Assembly (NCBI RefSeq): GCF_002027705.1 | Contig: NZ_MBTG01000013.1 | Location: 62,001-126,000, forward strand | Direction of reading: 5' to 3' | Source of the DNA: Paenibacillus ferrarius | Lineage (GTDB): Bacteria > Bacillota > Bacilli > Paenibacillales > NBRC-103111 | DNA length: 64,000 bases | Part shown: piece by piece, positions 56,758 to 62,715 of the stretch | Layout of the letters: each line of letters opens with the position of its first letter | Numbering within the stretch: the first letter of the stretch is position 1 | Translations under genes and position numbers: made by a program | The notes under the pieces: model-generated | What the model saw: only the letters and a program-made list of their open reading frames with translations | What the model was told of the DNA's origin: nothing | Database searches by the model: none

Positions 56758-57591
56758 TTATACTTCTGTACGTTGAAGCAGTCTCTCAAGATGCATCGTC
56801 AAGTAGCCGGTTTCGTCATCAGGCACTTCCAGCTGCAGGGAATCGCTAAGCATCAGAGATAGTACTTTGGCTTTGACATACGTGTCCCCGTACTCTTCTT
56901 TTATTTTACCCAGCAAAGAATTTTGCAGCGTCTTTTTTTGCTTAACCCGCTCAATGACACCTTTCAAATGACTTATGAACCGCAAGGTTGAGAATGAATC
57001 ATCGAAATTAAAGCCTAATTCTTTGGCAGATTCAATGGTCTGTGACACCACTCTGACGACGGCTAAGGAATCCGCTGCTTGCTCTTTTTTGCGGGCACTG
57101 TTGAAGTGCATCGTCAGGAACGCAATTTCATCCTCAGGCAATTTAACATCCAGATGTTCATTTAGAAAATCAACTGCTTTTTTGGCGACCTTGTATTCTT
57201 CCGGATACATATAGCCGATTTCGTACGCAAAAGGATTCGTAATGAAAATCCCGCGTTTTTGGCGCTCCACAGCAAAATTGATATGATCAACTAAGGAAGC
57301 ATGAATCGTTTCCGAGAAGTCACCTTCCAGCATGCTTTGGGCATAGGCGATGACTTCCTCCGTGATCCCAATAATCTTCACATCAACCGCATTTAGGATT
57401 TGCTCATAGTTCCTAAGCACTTCTGACGTATGCAGCAGAAACTCTTGTGTGATTTCGGCTTCATTAATAAGCATGCCCGGTGTTTTCTTGAATCCGATCC
57501 CTTTGCCGAAAGCAATCGAATTTTTCCCGGATGTCAAATGCGCCATCACGACATTATGCGATAGAACATGAATGATTGTTCTTTCAATCAT
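56758..57591 (-). CDS. glcT: BglG/GlcT-family transcription antiterminator
   Basis: A 277-residue PTS-regulated antiterminator: N-terminal RNA-binding CAT domain (about 1-55, HVLSHNVVMAHLTSGKNSIAFGKGIGFKKTPG), PRD1 (about 70-170, with HINFAVERQKRG and FLTMHFNSARK) and PRD2 (about 180-275, with ISHLKGVIERVKQ and LTMHLERLLQ). It binds RAT RNA hairpins to stop leader terminators, and is controlled by PTS phosphorylation of PRD histidines. GGAGGTG precedes the ATG. It is 17 bases downstream of the EIICB gene. No clear RAT was found before that gene, but a RAT-like hairpin precedes the ABC operon at 62614-62641; the exact substrate is inferred from the neighbour. Confidence 0.85.
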   Translation of the reverse strand: MIERTIIHVLSHNVVMAHLTSGKNSIAFGKGIGFKKTPGMLINEAEITQEFLLHTSEVLRNYEQILNAVDVKIIGITEEVIAYAQSMLEGDFSETIHASLVDHINFAVERQKRGIFITNPFAYEIGYMYPEEYKVAKKAVDFLNEHLDVKLPEDEIAFLTMHFNSARKKEQAADSLAVVRVVSQTIESAKELGFNFDDSFSTLRFISHLKGVIERVKQKKTLQNSLLGKIKEEYGDTYVKAKVLSLMLSDSLQLEVPDDETGYLTMHLERLLQRTEV

Positions 57592-57608: not shown

Positions 57609-59066
57609 TTAGGCTTGTCCTGATTTGTCTTTTTGTAAGCTGAGCATCGGTTTAATACTTTCACGAATTTGTTCGGATTCCGTACCAAATACAACATGCA
57701 CATTGCCGTTGCCAAGCCTGATGACGCCAATGGCGCCTAGCTCTTTGAGCTCGCTGTCCAGAACTAGCTGATCTTCTTTCACAAGCAGCCGCAGCCGAGT
57801 TATGCAAGCATCTATGGAGAGTATGTTCGCCGCTCCGCCAATATGCCTTAAAATGCTGGATGGACGATCCTCCTTCACTTTCACCTTGCTTGCCTCTGCC
57901 TCCTCTGTTTCTATGGCAGCCGTCTCCTCTTTGCTGGAGGCTTTGAGCGGGAAGAAATGCAAATAAATCCGAAAGGTCACATAGTAGAGAATGAAGTAGC
58001 CTACGCCAACAAGAAGAATCCAGTAAGGTTTCGTAGATACATGCCAATTCAGAACAAAATCGATAAAGCCTGCCGAGAAACCAAAGCCCATTTTGACTTG
58101 AAGCATATTCATTAGAAGCATAGAAAAGCCATTCAAAACGGCATGTATCACGTACAATCCCGGTGCTACGAACATAAAAGCAAATTCAATGGGTTCCGTT
58201 ATGCCTGTTAAGAAGCTCGTCAATCCAGCACTGAGCATGACCGGAACGATCAATTGTCGATTAGCGGAAGAGGTGCTTCGTATAATAGCAAAAGCAGCAG
58301 CTGGAAGACCGAACATAATGACGGGATAAAATCCGGTCATGAACATCCCGGCATCTGGATCTCCTGCGAAAAAACGCGAGATATCGCCGTGCACGATTTT
58401 CCCAGTCGCTGTCGTATAGTCCCCGATCTGAAACCAGGCAATGTTATTAATAATATGATGCAGACCTGTTGGAATCAGCAGTCGATTTATTACCCCGTAG
58501 ATGAACACACCTATATTTCCGTTATCCACAATCCATAAACCGATGATACTGATGCCCTTCTGCACCGGAGGCCAGATATAGCCCATTAATACGCCTAGAA
58601 AAACCATAGCCAGCGATGTCAATAAAGGTACAAATCGCTTGCCCCCGAAAAATCCGAGCGCCTTCGGCAGCTTAATATGCTGGAATCTGTTAAAAAACAC
58701 AGCGGATATTCCACCAACAAGCATTCCGCCCAGTACGCCCATGTCCAGCCGATCGGCAGATTCTGTTCCCGTTTGGGAAAGCTGCAGGACATTGTTAAAC
58801 ACCAAATAACCAACCGTTGCAGCTAATGCTGCAATTCCGTCTCCTGATGTCAGTCCGATGGCAATGCCAATCGCGAAGATTAAAGGCAGATTATCGAAGA
58901 TAGCGCTTCCGCCTGACTCAAAGATGTGAGCCATATGCATCAGGAAGGGATCTTCAAAAGTCATTTTACCGATACGCAATAAAATAGATGCCGCCGGCAG
59001 CACCGCAATCGGGATCATTAACGAACGCCCAATTTTTTGTAATGTATACATTAGTCTCATGTTCAT
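57609..59066 (-). CDS. PTS EIICB component, glucose/N-acetylglucosamine type
   Basis: A 485-residue membrane transporter of the glucose superfamily. The EIIC part (about 1-375, eight to ten helices) holds the substrate-site signature SFLTGITEPIEFAFMF and GLHHIINNIAWFQIG; after a charged Glu/Lys-rich linker, the EIIB part (about 410-480) has the phosphorylated Cys in ILSIDACITRLRLLV. There is no EIIA domain, which must come from elsewhere, as in NagP-type IICB. AAAGGTG precedes the ATG. A weak sigma-A-like promoter is at about 59128-59156. Substrate could be glucose, N-acetylglucosamine or glucosamine. Confidence 0.9.
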   Translation of the reverse strand: MNMRLMYTLQKIGRSLMIPIAVLPAASILLRIGKMTFEDPFLMHMAHIFESGGSAIFDNLPLIFAIGIAIGLTSGDGIAALAATVGYLVFNNVLQLSQTGTESADRLDMGVLGGMLVGGISAVFFNRFQHIKLPKALGFFGGKRFVPLLTSLAMVFLGVLMGYIWPPVQKGISIIGLWIVDNGNIGVFIYGVINRLLIPTGLHHIINNIAWFQIGDYTTATGKIVHGDISRFFAGDPDAGMFMTGFYPVIMFGLPAAAFAIIRSTSSANRQLIVPVMLSAGLTSFLTGITEPIEFAFMFVAPGLYVIHAVLNGFSMLLMNMLQVKMGFGFSAGFIDFVLNWHVSTKPYWILLVGVGYFILYYVTFRIYLHFFPLKASSKEETAAIETEEAEASKVKVKEDRPSSILRHIGGAANILSIDACITRLRLLVKEDQLVLDSELKELGAIGVIRLGNGNVHVVFGTESEQIRESIKPMLSLQKDKSGQA

Positions 59067-59141
59067 GTTCGTTCACCTTTAAGCCCACAAGTTTGGCCGT
59101 TTCTTGTTTGCTCTTGCCTATATCCCAATTATAGTAGAAAG

Positions 59142-59183
59142 AACACCCTCCTGAAAGGATAAAATCCTCTAGGATAAGGTGTT
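59142..59183 (-). terminator. Hairpin between the ABC permease and EIICB genes
   Basis: AACACC (59142-59147) pairs with GGTGTT (59178-59183) around an inner ATCCT/AGGAT-type palindrome, followed on the minus strand by CTTTCT. It may end ABC transcription or act as partial read-through. The EIICB -10 TATAAT (minus, 59128-59133) lies just beyond. Confidence 0.45.
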
Positions 59184-59207
59184 TTTTCTATGCTCTTCCA
59201 TATATTG

Positions 59208-60047
59208 TTATTTCACAGCTCCAGCGGTAATACCGGTTGCAATCTGGCGTTGGAAAATCATATATACGATCAATGTCGGAACCGTTGTGATCAGAAGGCC
59301 GGCGAATAACGGGCCCCACTCTGTGCGATATTGCATTTCTGCCTGCATCACAGCAAGACCGATTGGCAGCGTATACTTCGTTGGATCACTGTTAATAACA
59401 ACACCCAGGAAGTACTCGTTCCAGTTGTTCAGCATATTCGTAATCATAACCGTAATCAAGCCCGGTTGTGACAAAGGCAGCATGACGCGGAAGAATGTTC
59501 CGTAGTGGGAAGTTCCGTCAATAATGGCTGCTTCTTCAATCTCTTTCGGCAATGACTTATAGAACCCTACGAGCAAGAAAATACCAAAAGGAAGGTTCAG
59601 TGCCGCGTACACAAGGATTAATCCGATTAAAGAATCCGTCAAATGCAAATCACTCAACAAGAAGAACAGTGGAATCAAGGCAAGTGCGAACGGTATCATC
59701 ATCGAAGCAATGTAAATGGTATAAAGGAGTTTGCTTGCTTTAAAATCATACCTAGCTAAGATATAGGCCGTCATAGCAGCTAGGATCATACCAAGCAGGG
59801 TACTTCCAACCGTCACGACGATCGAATTTGTAAAATAAGTGCTAAAGTTATATTTACTCCAAACATAGGAGAAGTTTTCCCAAAGCAGCGGGAATTTCGG
59901 TAAAGCCCATGGGGCATTTAAGAAAAATTGCTCATTATTCTTGAGTGCATCGAGCAGTGTCCAAATCAATGGATACAGTACCGCTACGCTCCATATCAGA
60001 AGAATGATCCACACAAGCAGTTTAGCTAACGGATTTTTGATGACCAT
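59208..60047 (-). CDS. Carbohydrate ABC importer permease (MalG family)
   Basis: A 279-residue inner-membrane permease with six helices and the ABC2-type importer EAA loop GFYKSLPKEIEEAAIIDGTSHYGTFFRVMLPLSQPGL, which contacts the ATPase. N-terminal LAKLLVWIILLIWSVAVLYPLIWTLLDALK is typical of MalG partners. It follows the MalF-type permease after a 42-base gap. No ATPase gene is present, so it probably uses a shared MsmX-type ATPase encoded elsewhere. Confidence 0.92.
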   Translation of the reverse strand: MVIKNPLAKLLVWIILLIWSVAVLYPLIWTLLDALKNNEQFFLNAPWALPKFPLLWENFSYVWSKYNFSTYFTNSIVVTVGSTLLGMILAAMTAYILARYDFKASKLLYTIYIASMMIPFALALIPLFFLLSDLHLTDSLIGLILVYAALNLPFGIFLLVGFYKSLPKEIEEAAIIDGTSHYGTFFRVMLPLSQPGLITVMITNMLNNWNEYFLGVVINSDPTKYTLPIGLAVMQAEMQYRTEWGPLFAGLLITTVPTLIVYMIFQRQIATGITAGAVK

Positions 60048-60089: not shown

Positions 60090-60995
60090 TTAATGCATTT
60101 CGATTGTTTCTTGGCGCATCACACGCTGCAGGACAAGCGTCGTTATCAGTGAGATGATGAGAATCAACACGCCGATGGCTGCTCCGTAACCGAAATGATA
60201 TTGTTGAAATGCCATCCGATACAGGTAAGATCCCATTACTTGGGTCGTATTATCTGGCTGTCCGCCATTCGTCATCAACTGAACAATAACAAATGACCCG
60301 TTAAGTGTTGTTATCACGATATTGACAATAGAAACTTTAATTTGCTCCCAGATGAGCGGCATGGTGATATTGCGGAATTGCGACCATTGACCGGCTCCGT
60401 CTATATTAGCTGCCTCATAATAGGAAGCAGGAATATTCACGATTGCTGCAATCATCAAGATCATATAGAAACCAATACCTGCCCAAATGGTTGGAGGTAG
60501 AAGCATCCAGATTGTATGTTGAGTAAATCCTAGCCAAGTAATATCGACTTTTTCACTTGTAAAGAGCGACAAGAACGCGTTCAAGAATCCAATTTGCGGG
60601 TTGTAGATGAAATTCCAAAGCACACCGATAACAACAACCGAAATTACATTTGGAATAAAGAAGATCGCTCGGAAGAAGCCGGATCCCTTGAGGTTGAAAC
60701 GAGTTAATGCAACTGCGAAGAAAGTCGCCAAAATCATAATCCCAATGACTTTGCCAACAACTAGGAAGTAGTCATTCCCAATGGCTCTAAGAATAATGGG
60801 ATCTTTAAATAATTCTACAAAGTTATCGAAGCCAATAAAGGTACTATTCTCCGACATTCCTGACCAATCATAGAATGACTTCTGCAAAGCCTGTATAACA
60901 GGATAGATCGTAAATACACAGAAGAACAGAAAAGTCGGAATGATGAATGAAGCGATGAACAAATTCCGTTTCCACATTTTTGAGTTGGTCTTCAT
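60090..60995 (-). CDS. Carbohydrate ABC importer permease (MalF family)
   Basis: A 301-residue permease with six helices: FIASFIIPTFLFFCVFTIYPVIQALQKSFYDWSG, then FFRAIFFIPNVISVVVIGVLWNFIYNP and the EAA-loop PASYYEAANIDGAGQWSQFRNITMPLIWEQI. Partner of the MalG-type permease. The start (ATG, 60995) lies after an intercistronic hairpin (61025-61063) that separates it from the binding-protein gene. Confidence 0.92.
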   Translation of the reverse strand: MKTNSKMWKRNLFIASFIIPTFLFFCVFTIYPVIQALQKSFYDWSGMSENSTFIGFDNFVELFKDPIILRAIGNDYFLVVGKVIGIMILATFFAVALTRFNLKGSGFFRAIFFIPNVISVVVIGVLWNFIYNPQIGFLNAFLSLFTSEKVDITWLGFTQHTIWMLLPPTIWAGIGFYMILMIAAIVNIPASYYEAANIDGAGQWSQFRNITMPLIWEQIKVSIVNIVITTLNGSFVIVQLMTNGGQPDNTTQVMGSYLYRMAFQQYHFGYGAAIGVLILIISLITTLVLQRVMRQETIEMH

Positions 60996-61024: not shown

Positions 61025-61063
61025 GCGGAGAACTCTAAGGCTTTCACCTCGCTAGTTCTCCGC
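61025..61063 (-). promoter_or_regulatory. Intercistronic hairpin in the ABC operon
   Basis: A perfect 10-bp stem (GCGGAGAACT, 61025-61034, with AGTTCTCCGC, 61054-61063) and a 19-base loop lies between the binding-protein stop and the permease start. No T run follows on the minus strand, so it is more likely an mRNA 3'-end stabiliser or partial terminator that favours the binding protein. Confidence 0.7.
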
Positions 61064-61080: not shown

Positions 61081-62442
61081 TTATTTCTTTTGTTTCGCTA
61101 CAACGTCTGTAACACGTTTAACCCACTCTTCAGGCTTAATCGTTCCGATGGTCAAAGCTACTGTCGCATCTTGCATAGCTTTGTCTACGTCAGCCGCGAA
61201 GGACACGGTAGGTACAACAATGGTATCAGGGGAAGACAAGAATTTCGCTGCATCTTTTACAAAGTTAGGCGCTTTGGAAGAACTGATGTCACCTTTGATG
61301 TTGGAAGGCGCACCGCTAAGCTCTGCCCACTGAGAAGCTTGAGTTTTGGAGAATACGAACTGCATGAACGCTTTCGCTGCATCTTTGTTTTTCGCTTTTT
61401 TCGCAATAGCGAATGTCGAAGTTGACGTATTAGCTACCACTTTTCCACCTTTATCCTGCGTGATGGATGGGATGAATCCGAAGTCGAAGCTAGCTGGAAC
61501 GTCTTTCGCCATTTCGTTTGGCAGCCATAGACCGTTCGGGATGAAGGCATCTTTGTGTTGAAGGAATAAGGATTGGGAATCCGTGTGATTGATTTGTACG
61601 GATGCTTTATCGATGAATCCTTTGTCACGAAGTTGAACGATTTTGTCCAAACCTTTCAAGATTGCTGGACTTTTCCAAGCATCTAGGTTGTTTGAAGCCA
61701 TATCTTGCAGCAATTTGTAGTCGTTGTTGTTCGCCGATACAATCGCTGGATACAAGACAGAACCATTGATGTAGTAAGGGTATTTACCTGTATGAATGAA
61801 AGGATTAATGCCCGCTGCTTTAATCGTATCGCTGACTTTCAAGAAATCTTCGAAATCTTTAGGCTCAGCCCAACCTTTGTCTTTGAACAAAGCTTTGTCA
61901 TAGAAGATACCCCATGAACTCATAACGAATGGGATGTTGTAGATTTTGCCATCGTATTGCGGCGGTTGCTGCGCAAGCAGATCAAGAATTTTATCACCGT
62001 CAACGTTTTTCGCATCTTTCAGCCAGTCAGTCAAATCTTCCAGCTGACCGTCTGTCACCATTTGGCGATCGAACAACTCAGGTCCATCAATATATACGAA
62101 ATCAGGTGGGTTACCAGCGATCCAACGGGGTTTCATTTGTTCGTTGATTTTTGGTCCCGCACTTTCTTTAATTTTCAAATCAGGATTTGCTGCTTGGAAA
62201 TCAGCAATTACTTTTTTCCACCATTTGTCGCCATAACCGCCAACAAAGTACTGGATTTCAAAATCACCAGTTAATTTTTTGGCGCCCGCAGGTGTTGCCG
62301 TCGCAGCTGCTGTTGCTGCTGCCGTTGGCGCTGTTGTCGCTGCCGGTTTTGTTGTTTCTGTTGGTGATGCTTTACCACAGCCTGCAGCTACAAGTACCAT
62401 AGATGCAGCCAAGCCCATTGTTGACCATTTCTTCATATTCAT
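61081..62442 (-). CDS. Extracellular carbohydrate-binding lipoprotein (SBP family 1)
   Basis: A 453-residue ABC substrate-binding lipoprotein: signal and lipobox ASMVLVAAGCGKA (Cys about 22), an Ala/Thr-rich tether (TTKPAATTAPTAAATAAATATPAG), then a MalE-like two-lobe fold with FEIQYFVGGYGDKWWKKVIADFQAANPDLKI, KPRWIAGNPPDFVYIDGPELFD, NIPFVMSSWGIFYDKALF and AKAFMQFVFSKTQASQWAEL. Trp and Tyr-rich lobes suggest an oligosaccharide ligand. It is the first gene of the importer operon, with a long leader (about 62443-62690) carrying a terminator and RAT-like stem. Confidence 0.92.
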   Translation of the reverse strand: MNMKKWSTMGLAASMVLVAAGCGKASPTETTKPAATTAPTAAATAAATATPAGAKKLTGDFEIQYFVGGYGDKWWKKVIADFQAANPDLKIKESAGPKINEQMKPRWIAGNPPDFVYIDGPELFDRQMVTDGQLEDLTDWLKDAKNVDGDKILDLLAQQPPQYDGKIYNIPFVMSSWGIFYDKALFKDKGWAEPKDFEDFLKVSDTIKAAGINPFIHTGKYPYYINGSVLYPAIVSANNNDYKLLQDMASNNLDAWKSPAILKGLDKIVQLRDKGFIDKASVQINHTDSQSLFLQHKDAFIPNGLWLPNEMAKDVPASFDFGFIPSITQDKGGKVVANTSTSTFAIAKKAKNKDAAKAFMQFVFSKTQASQWAELSGAPSNIKGDISSSKAPNFVKDAAKFLSSPDTIVVPTVSFAADVDKAMQDATVALTIGTIKPEEWVKRVTDVVAKQKK

Positions 62443-62573
62443 GTGTTCATCTTCTCCCTTTTTTAATCTGATTGTTTGATTGTTATTTATGGAGTAGCGT
62501 GTAACTTCGGTTAAACTTGCCTAATGATTTGAGTGACCAACCCCTTTCATCCATTAAAAATCGGAAAAATAAA

Positions 62574-62628
62574 AAGGGCATAGTTATAGAAGAAAGTGTT
62601 GCTTTCCTTCTAATAACTAATGCCCTTA
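62574..62628 (-). terminator. Intrinsic terminator in the leader of the ABC importer operon
   Basis: An inverted repeat spans 62574-62628 (AAGGGCAT-AGTTAT-AGAAG pairing with CTTCT-ATAACT-ATGCCCTT) with a TGTTG loop near 62597-62601. On the minus strand it is followed by TTTTTATTTTT. It lies about 130 bases before the binding-protein ATG and downstream of the promoter at 62687-62715, so it would stop leader transcription unless prevented. Confidence 0.8.
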
Positions 62629-62641
62629 CGGTAACATGTTA
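62614..62641 (-). promoter_or_regulatory. RAT-like antiterminator hairpin
   Basis: On the minus strand this reads TAAC-ATG-TTA-CC-GTAA-GG-G-CAT-TA-GTTA: a short stem CC/GG with GTAA tetraloop, internal loop TTA/G, stem ATG/CAT, bulge TA, outer stem TAAC/GTTA. The arrangement GTTA-(stem)-GCA resembles the ribonucleic antiterminator core (GTTACTGC...GCAGGCA). Its 3' half (62614-62628) overlaps the terminator's 5' arm, making the two structures exclusive. The upper stem is shorter than usual, so this is a candidate. Confidence 0.4.
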
Positions 62642-62686
62642 TTAAAACTGACATATTTAATTGTTTCGCGTTTCTCGTGTGATTAA

Positions 62687-62715
62687 ATCTTACAACAAAA
62701 TGACATGGTCGTCAA
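62687..62715 (-). promoter_or_regulatory. Promoter of the ABC importer operon
   Basis: Minus-strand TTGACG (62710-62715) and TAAGAT (62687-62692) with a 17-bp spacer. Transcription would start near 62680, giving a 240-base leader before the binding-protein gene. I see no gene in 62443-62816. Confidence 0.65.

Follow-up and report, generated by a model that had tools for sequence, protein, structure and literature searches.

A variant RAT-type hairpin ahead of ABC importer genes in Paenibacillus ferrarius and its probable role in antitermination

Known RAT systems and the Paenibacillus locus

RAT-type antitermination is usually taught as a device by which a PTS controls its own genes. A CAT dimer binds the RAT hairpin and blocks termination, and EII phosphorylates PRD1 when the sugar is absent. 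Antiterminators controlled through PRDs carry conserved phosphoryl-acceptor histidines, two per PRD. Competition between RAT and terminator, combined with PRD control, operates in the bgl, sac and lic operons under BglG, SacY and LicT, acting on PTS and hydrolase genes for beta-glucosides or sucrose. In glcT-ptsG loci the RAT lies between the two genes and likewise competes with a terminator. This Bacillus-type system employs a CAT-PRD-PRD protein and a RAT with the core ACGUGUUA-C..G-GCAUGAGU, two 6-nt internal loops and a 4-5-bp upper stem, CUGAU/AUCAG.

The nearest studied system is NagY-NagE of Enterococcus faecalis, an antiterminator paired with a NagE PTS. Its nagY-nagE operon contains a RAT that overlaps a terminator, is bound with a Kd of 4.18 nM and has the published sequence TTTCATGTGACTAGATAATACTAGGCATGGAA, and hylA is a further target (PMC9981650, PMC12502629). 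Seven ABC transporters were among the genes lowered in a nagY mutant, and a putative RAT accompanies 23 of the 26 direct targets; the available portions of these accounts describe no RAT-headed ABC operon (PMC9981650, PMC12502629). The bgl RAT of C. acetobutylicum has been given as 5'-GGATTGTTACTG-N6or7-CAGGCGAGACC-3' (PMC12628678). In Thermoanaerobacter X514, a BglG-family regulator was proposed, from an expression network, for xylose ABC genes, and neither a RAT nor a terminator is described in the available part of that report (PMC3192829). A literature search in which subscription journals were poorly covered, and many sources available only in part, yielded no report that places a RAT ahead of either an ABC operon or an NRPS gene.

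The locus considered here lies in the window, that is, the whole 64,000-nucleotide stretch of Paenibacillus ferrarius DNA that was analysed (contig NZ_MBTG01000013.1, positions 62,001 to 126,000), in whose numbering coordinates are given. Its minus strand carries a run of five genes encoding an NgcE-like binding protein, two permeases, a PTS EIICB and a CAT-PRD-PRD antiterminator, all within the window (Table 1). As in the GlcT/ptsG system, a CAT-PRD-PRD protein accompanies a RAT with the same type of core and two 6-nt internal loops, but here the RAT precedes an ABC importer, its upper stem has 2 bp plus a tetraloop, and the antiterminator, unlike GlcT proper, scores under the GlcT cut-off. 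RAT-terminator competition and PRD control would be common to this locus and the LicT, SacY and BglG systems, whose loop bases differ. In the published NagY sequence the internal-loop bases (ATGTGA, GCATG) are similar to those in the window, whereas the upper stem is long. The Thermoanaerobacter proposal resembles the present case in that a BglG-family protein is thought to act on an ABC importer. Compared with known RATs, the new elements are ABC importers as a target class and a short, GNRA-capped upper stem; the same switch here would head an ATP-driven importer.

The leader very probably acts as an antitermination switch of the BglG/SacY/GlcT kind, controlling the ABC importer, the PTS permease and the antiterminator itself. 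This reading is preferred because the two hairpins exclude each other, are conserved and covary, the element is akin to glcT-ptsG RATs and occurs one-to-one with the antiterminator, the PRD histidines are conserved, and independent ABC units have RATs of their own. Transcription would start near 62680 and stop by default at the terminator (62625-62565). During uptake of the cognate PTS sugar, EIICB would cease to phosphorylate the first PRD of the antiterminator, which would then form an active dimer, bind the RAT hairpin (62643-62612) and stabilise it. The stabilised RAT would remove the 5' arm of the terminator, and polymerase would read into the ABC genes. Binding by the candidate antiterminator, the phosphorylation logic and read-through are modelled here on known systems. 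Gene content suggests GlcNAc or chitobiose as the inducing sugar, the NgcE- and NagE-type models being matched below their cut-offs, and GlcNAc flux may induce an importer for chitobiose or a similar sugar. The flux of one transporter would then set the amount of another, unrelated importer, perhaps for a longer form of the same sugar. This would be simple wiring for the use of chitin fragments, with free GlcNAc as the signal that allows chitobiose uptake.

Table 1. Genes and RNA elements of the locus, in window coordinates
Feature	Position	Strand	Remarks
Sigma-A-like promoter	62687..62715	-	TTGACG-17-TAAGAT; TTGACG kept in 30 leaders
RAT-type antiterminator hairpin	62612..62643	-	6-bp lower stem AATAAC/GTTATT
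Intrinsic terminator	62565..62625	-	5' arm = RAT 3' half
ABC solute-binding protein	61081..62442	-	nearest NCBIfam model NgcE (GlcNAc/diacetylchitobiose), below cut-off; ATG at 62442
Hairpin between binding-protein and first permease genes	61025..61063	-	-23.2 kcal/mol, z -5.4
ABC permease (BPD_transp_1)	60090..60995	-	
ABC permease (BPD_transp_1)	59208..60047	-	
Hairpin, then TACTATAAT, in permease-EIICB gap	59135..59190	-	-25.6 kcal/mol, z -3.4
PTS EIICB, NagE/Glc-type	57609..59066	-	nearest NCBIfam models GlcNAc-type IIBC and GlcB
Antiterminator, CAT_RBD and two PRD	56758..57591	-	nearest NCBIfam model GlcT

Hairpins and promoter of the leader

An earlier note on this DNA had described a sigma-A-like promoter, a leader terminator and a RAT-like hairpin overlapping the 5' arm of that terminator, and all three elements were confirmed in place. 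The window site has the lower stem, the RUGUUA and GCAUNA internal loops (here ATGTTA and GCATTA) and the closing C-G of the RAT family, together with the family's overlap between hairpin and terminator 5' arm in a leader. The 14 nt at 62625-62612 belong to both the RAT 3' half and that arm; the two hairpins are therefore mutually exclusive. The upper stem is CC/GG capped by GTAA, and with 2 bp instead of at least 4 bp the RAT is called a variant; the longer stem is typical of the known RATs compared, is not known to be required and is thus non-defining. The earlier note had been rightly cautious on this point. The window has a single copy of the core TGTNAC-N(3-14)-GGCATNAG (N = T, A or G), where 200 shuffles lead one to expect 0.075; a loose RAT pattern has five matches in the organism's own genome, the short CC-N4-GG form being present only in that of the window.

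The terminator is a 50-nt hairpin (62625-62576) followed by TTTTTATTTTT. The leader (62680-62560) folds with -29.1 kcal/mol, the mean of its shuffles being -15.5, and none of 200 shuffles folds as well; a simple terminator scan of the window did not list it. Forcing the RAT to form costs the leader 15 kcal/mol in stability relative to the fold with the terminator, and the folding energy of the RAT alone is unremarkable, as 11 of 200 shuffles of the 36-nt segment fold as well. The RAT would therefore need a protein in order to form.

The TTGACG of the promoter is invariant in 30 distinct aligned orthologous leaders. In 54 of the 56 sites assembled below, the 120 nt preceding the RAT core include TTGAC; the exceptions are L212 and L213. 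A promoter scan of the window returned 20 sites against 22.4 in shuffles, i.e., no excess over chance. The promoter also contains an inverted repeat, TGAC-N6-GTCA (62714-62701, minus strand), and ATGTCA recurs in the leader just 5' of the RAT (62654-62649, minus strand), in a block kept in most leaders of the genus; these elements could possibly serve a DNA-binding regulator or have a role in the RNA.

An Rfam search gave no family match at gathering score. Nine weak matches (E 0.7 to 8, with E up to 10 allowed), among them snR52, RAGATH-6, miRNAs, CRISPR repeats, STnc410 and the like, lay far below the gathering scores and were judged to be chance; none is a RAT family. The leader DNA had no match when searched against plasmids.

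Conservation, covariation and kinship with glcT-ptsG RATs

The block is carried with few changes by 30 distinct orthologous binding-protein leaders, 29 from the genus of the window and one from another. Together with nine further leaders (eight from other genera) and 17 further sites, they make up the 56 sites analysed. By origin, these are the 61 sites of a wide search pattern minus six rejected ones, plus a site with a 5-nt loop at locus L180 found by covariance model R2; a second site copy at the end of L180 duplicates the L207 site and was not counted. The six rejected sites (G283, G295, G298, G299, G336, G418) were dismissed as chance for want of a GNRA loop and of a four-T run in the 78 bases downstream, and four of them are alike and resemble coding DNA. 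Only 29 of the 56 sites are distinct over 32 nt, since many come from near-identical relatives, and close kin are also present among the distinct ones. Alignment A3 comprises 55 sites with flanks (37 distinct rows), the 5-nt-loop site being left out. A reversed control pattern found 1 site in the strict search and 3 in the wide search of 392 genomes.

Within the genus the block is nearly invariant, so that conservation alone proves no hairpin, and the terminator might be an ordinary constitutive attenuator preceded by a merely conserved sequence. This is highly improbable: between genera, a change in one strand of the lower stem is matched by one in the other, the internal loops hardly vary, and the 3' strand that takes part in the RAT also keeps its pairing in the terminator. 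The lower stem appears as AATAAC/GTTATT, TTTAAC/GTTAAA and CATAAC/GTTATG, with three pairs changing on both sides. Over the 37 distinct rows, 97.0% of pairing cells are paired against 88.2% in shuffles, and double-change cells number 18 against 5.2; neither value is reached in any of 500 shuffles. For the lower stem, 95.9% of cells are paired, and sliding the structure by 1 to 3 columns lowers overall pairing from 97.0% to 15-49%. The lower stem is complete, with six pairs, in 50 of the 56 sites; four sites have five pairs, and the remaining two have three and four. The upper-stem pairs never vary and give no covariation signal; CC/GG was built into the search patterns, which makes the alignment no test of the upper stem. 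The wide pattern left the loop bases free, and even so 53 of 56 sites, or 26 of 29 distinct ones, have a GNRA upper loop (GUAA 21, GCAA 19, GAAA 10, GAGA 2, GCGA 1; the others are AUAA, AAAA and GCUGA).

One of the tests set beforehand for the proposal was whether homologous leaders keep the overlap, and they do: of the 14 shared nucleotides, 11 or more are paired in the terminator fold at 54 of the 56 sites and 10 at the other two. By a loose count of at least four T within 20-70 nt past the core, all 56 sites have a T-tail; an earlier count of 38/56 was spoilt by extra 3' hairpins.

Kinship with known RATs was assessed by a covariance model, R1, whose training set consisted solely of 24 distinct glcT-ptsG RATs chosen independently of the window. 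The glcT loci came from an NCBIfam GlcT search of 151 genomes of the class, and a glcT-type RAT lies downstream of glcT in 30 of 30 loci fetched. These RATs were picked by pattern, and R1 inherits the fixed core of that pattern. With filters off, the top match of R1 in the window is 62645-62609 on the minus strand, with 21.5 bits and an E-value of 0.0033 that is rough owing to a short calibration; the next match reaches 2.7. The covariance search proposed in the earlier note thus places the leader first in the window, with an independent model. Common to glcT RATs and the window are AC-RUGUUA-C ... G-GCAUNA-GU, a 6-bp lower stem and internal loops of 6 nt on both sides; the upper stem reads CUGAU-UCG-AUCAG in most glcT RATs versus CC-GUAA-GG in the window. 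Over the whole own genome (9.2 Mb), R1 reported nothing at E <= 10, with 150 of 4726 candidates scored, and the E-value of the window site would be near 0.5 by our own scaling to that genome. Model R2 gave one site at E <= 1 in the same genome and found one of 30 RATs in the glcT-ptsG loci, weakly (18.2 bits, E 0.56). The canonical model R1 detects the short variant, whereas R2 mostly misses the glcT-ptsG RATs.

The antiterminator and its probable targets

The antiterminator contains the Pfam domains CAT_RBD and two PRD. GlcT (NF047357) is its best family model at 240.2 bits, under the cut-off of 320; the protein is GlcT-like, not GlcT. It is 100% identical to a protein of P. alba LMG 31323. 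Besides the CAT domain and two PRDs, it has the histidines expected of a PRD-controlled antiterminator: H103, H162, H208 and H267 are invariant in 27 of 27 aligned antiterminators, which are a chosen part of those fetched. The own genome has one CAT_RBD gene, and this lies in the RAT-headed gene run. Two genomes contain a second antiterminator, 86-88% identical to that of the window (L134, which is the locus of L025, and L135/L027). Neither copy has this operon's ABC and PTS genes as neighbours; L134 adjoins a GH20 gene, and R2 found no RAT near either of them.

The co-occurrence of protein and RNA was followed through a sample of 392 genomes from the order, taken out of a larger set. The antiterminator is present at E <= 1e-80 in 43 of them, with 60-100% identity. 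A strict RAT pattern hits 40 genomes, one site each, all within these 43, and the remaining three carriers (G481, G527, G530) have a RAT by model R2, giving 43/43; in the 349 genomes without the antiterminator, the strict pattern found no site. The wide pattern found its 61 sites in 55 genomes, adding 12 beyond the 43. Six of these (G215, G216, G506, G526, G491, G498) have a more distant CAT protein, so that a CAT_RBD gene also accompanies the RAT-headed ABC unit in these genomes; in the other six, the match lacks both a terminator and a GNRA loop. This distribution bears on whether the hairpin is bound by something else, either a small molecule, as in a riboswitch, or an unrelated RNA-binding protein. 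In favour of this, known RATs have longer upper stems, and internal loops that never change might be a binding site of any kind. However, the bases that do not vary agree with glcT-ptsG RATs (ACRUGUUA-C..G-GCAUNAGU), the site follows the antiterminator through the genomes, and Rfam offers no family for it at gathering score, which makes another ligand very unlikely.

Classified by downstream gene, the 56 sites precede ABC genes in 49 cases, PTS EIICB in 2, hexosaminidase in 2 and NRPS genes in 3. A single RAT stands ahead of all three gene sets, ABC, PTS and antiterminator, at 41 of the 49 ABC-linked sites (30 in the genus of the window, plus G221, G262, G229-G232, G036, G222, G031, G407 and G530); 37 of them were checked gene by gene and four, in the genus, by the positions of binding protein and antiterminator only. 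In such runs the RAT might serve the PTS and antiterminator genes, with the ABC genes as passengers inserted between RAT and PTS gene, since cotranscription cannot separate target from passenger and PTS genes are the classical targets of this antiterminator family. In eight genomes, however, the ABC genes form a separate unit with its own RAT and terminator, and TTGAC lies upstream in six of the eight. The unit lies right behind a RAT-EIICB-antiterminator unit in G481 and G527, behind an antiterminator-EIICB unit in G215 and G216, divergent from the antiterminator unit in G506 and G498, and on a different contig from the antiterminator in G526 and G491. Conversely, no RAT was found at three ABC paralogue loci without a neighbouring antiterminator unit (L136, L137, L138). 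The separate units argue that the ABC importer is a target in its own right, and together with the RAT-less paralogues they leave the passenger explanation improbable. The suggestion in the earlier note that the antiterminator may control the ABC importer is thereby supported, as antiterminator, RAT and ABC genes occur together even where the ABC unit stands apart.

L137 (G000:C2) and L138 (G000:C16) are two further ABC operons of the own genome, with binding proteins about 57% and 51% identical to that of the window. At L133/L057 (G029), the binding-protein and second permease genes each align in two pieces, as from frameshifts or assembly errors, and the RAT-terminator is intact.

Several genomes with a separate ABC unit also carry a RAT in the antiterminator or PTS unit. 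R1 matches before the antiterminator gene in G215, G506, G498, G526 and G491 (loci L212, L216/L247, L219, L245 and L246), and in G481 and G527 a RAT lies before the PTS gene; no RAT was found in the antiterminator leader of G216. The upper stems of the antiterminator-leader RATs are CTAG/CTAG in G506 and G498, like that of the published NagY RAT, CTTCAA/TTGAAG in G526 and G491, and short in G215. Since a single CAT_RBD gene was found in G506, G498, G526 and G491 alongside both stem types, one protein would serve both. The 2-bp GNRA-capped RAT hints that a CAT domain can dispense with a long upper stem as long as the lower stem and internal loops are kept. The CAT protein of G526 (L245:2487-3095, plus strand; 202 aa according to the ORF list) apparently has one PRD, as does an alike gene in L246 (G491). 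In L245 this gene is followed by a 169-aa ORF resembling EIIA and then by EIICB, with a 6-bp-upper-stem RAT upstream.

In the window itself, the ABC genes, the PTS gene and the antiterminator gene look like one operon with the RAT at its head, and coupling of PTS and ABC uptake would therefore occur here by cotranscription. NgcE is the best NCBIfam match of the binding protein at 243.9 bits, under the cut-off of 399.65 bits, so that the protein falls outside NgcE proper. EIICB reaches 519.9 bits with GlcNAc-type IIBC (cut-off 553.2) and 490.6 bits with GlcB (cut-off 591.8), and no EIIA domain was found in it. The hairpin between the binding-protein and first permease genes perhaps stabilises the mRNA or attenuates transcription in part. 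In the gap from the second permease to EIICB (59205-59120, minus strand), the strong hairpin and the TACTATAAT motif make an internal attenuator and a second promoter before the PTS gene possible. Cotranscription of the PTS and antiterminator genes may thus be weaker, and these genes may have a basal promoter of their own; the switch would need one to start up. The permease-EIICB gap measures 133-145 in 26 measured loci of the genus (a script count, stop codon included, as for the values that follow), 142 in G221, 144 in G262, and 21 to 61 in the remaining nine loci with the five-gene run.

On balance, we lean towards a wider role for the switch. An antiterminator that senses a PTS would, in two families of the order, run a regulon through short GNRA-capped RATs, with the ABC importer as main member and with recruitment of the switch to chitin-sugar hydrolases and, in three genera, to NRPS genes; amino-sugar uptake would then gate a second transport system and natural-product synthesis. 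A short RAT with terminator precedes a GH20 hexosaminidase in G026 (L214:4672-4715, minus strand) and a large NAGidase-domain protein in G498 (L220:1746-1789, plus strand), and these targets, with the GH20 gene beside the L134 paralogue, point to GlcNAc polymers. In Streptomyces, amino-sugar sensing is linked to secondary metabolism through DasR, and NRPS leaders with a short RAT and terminator, found at three sites in three genera, make such a link directly testable in Firmicutes. In G017 (L215:4464-4507, minus strand), the RAT precedes an NRPS with condensation, AMP-binding, methyltransferase and PP-binding domains, 1498 aa long and open at the end of the stretch; the lower stem is poor, with three of six pairs. 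In G036 (L204:1500-1543, minus strand), the RAT is followed by panD and then by an NRPS of 4306 aa, and a 22-nt core is common to the G017 and G036 sites. At the third site, in G407 (L169:3118-3161, plus strand), only a truncated condensation-domain remnant of 147 aa is left.
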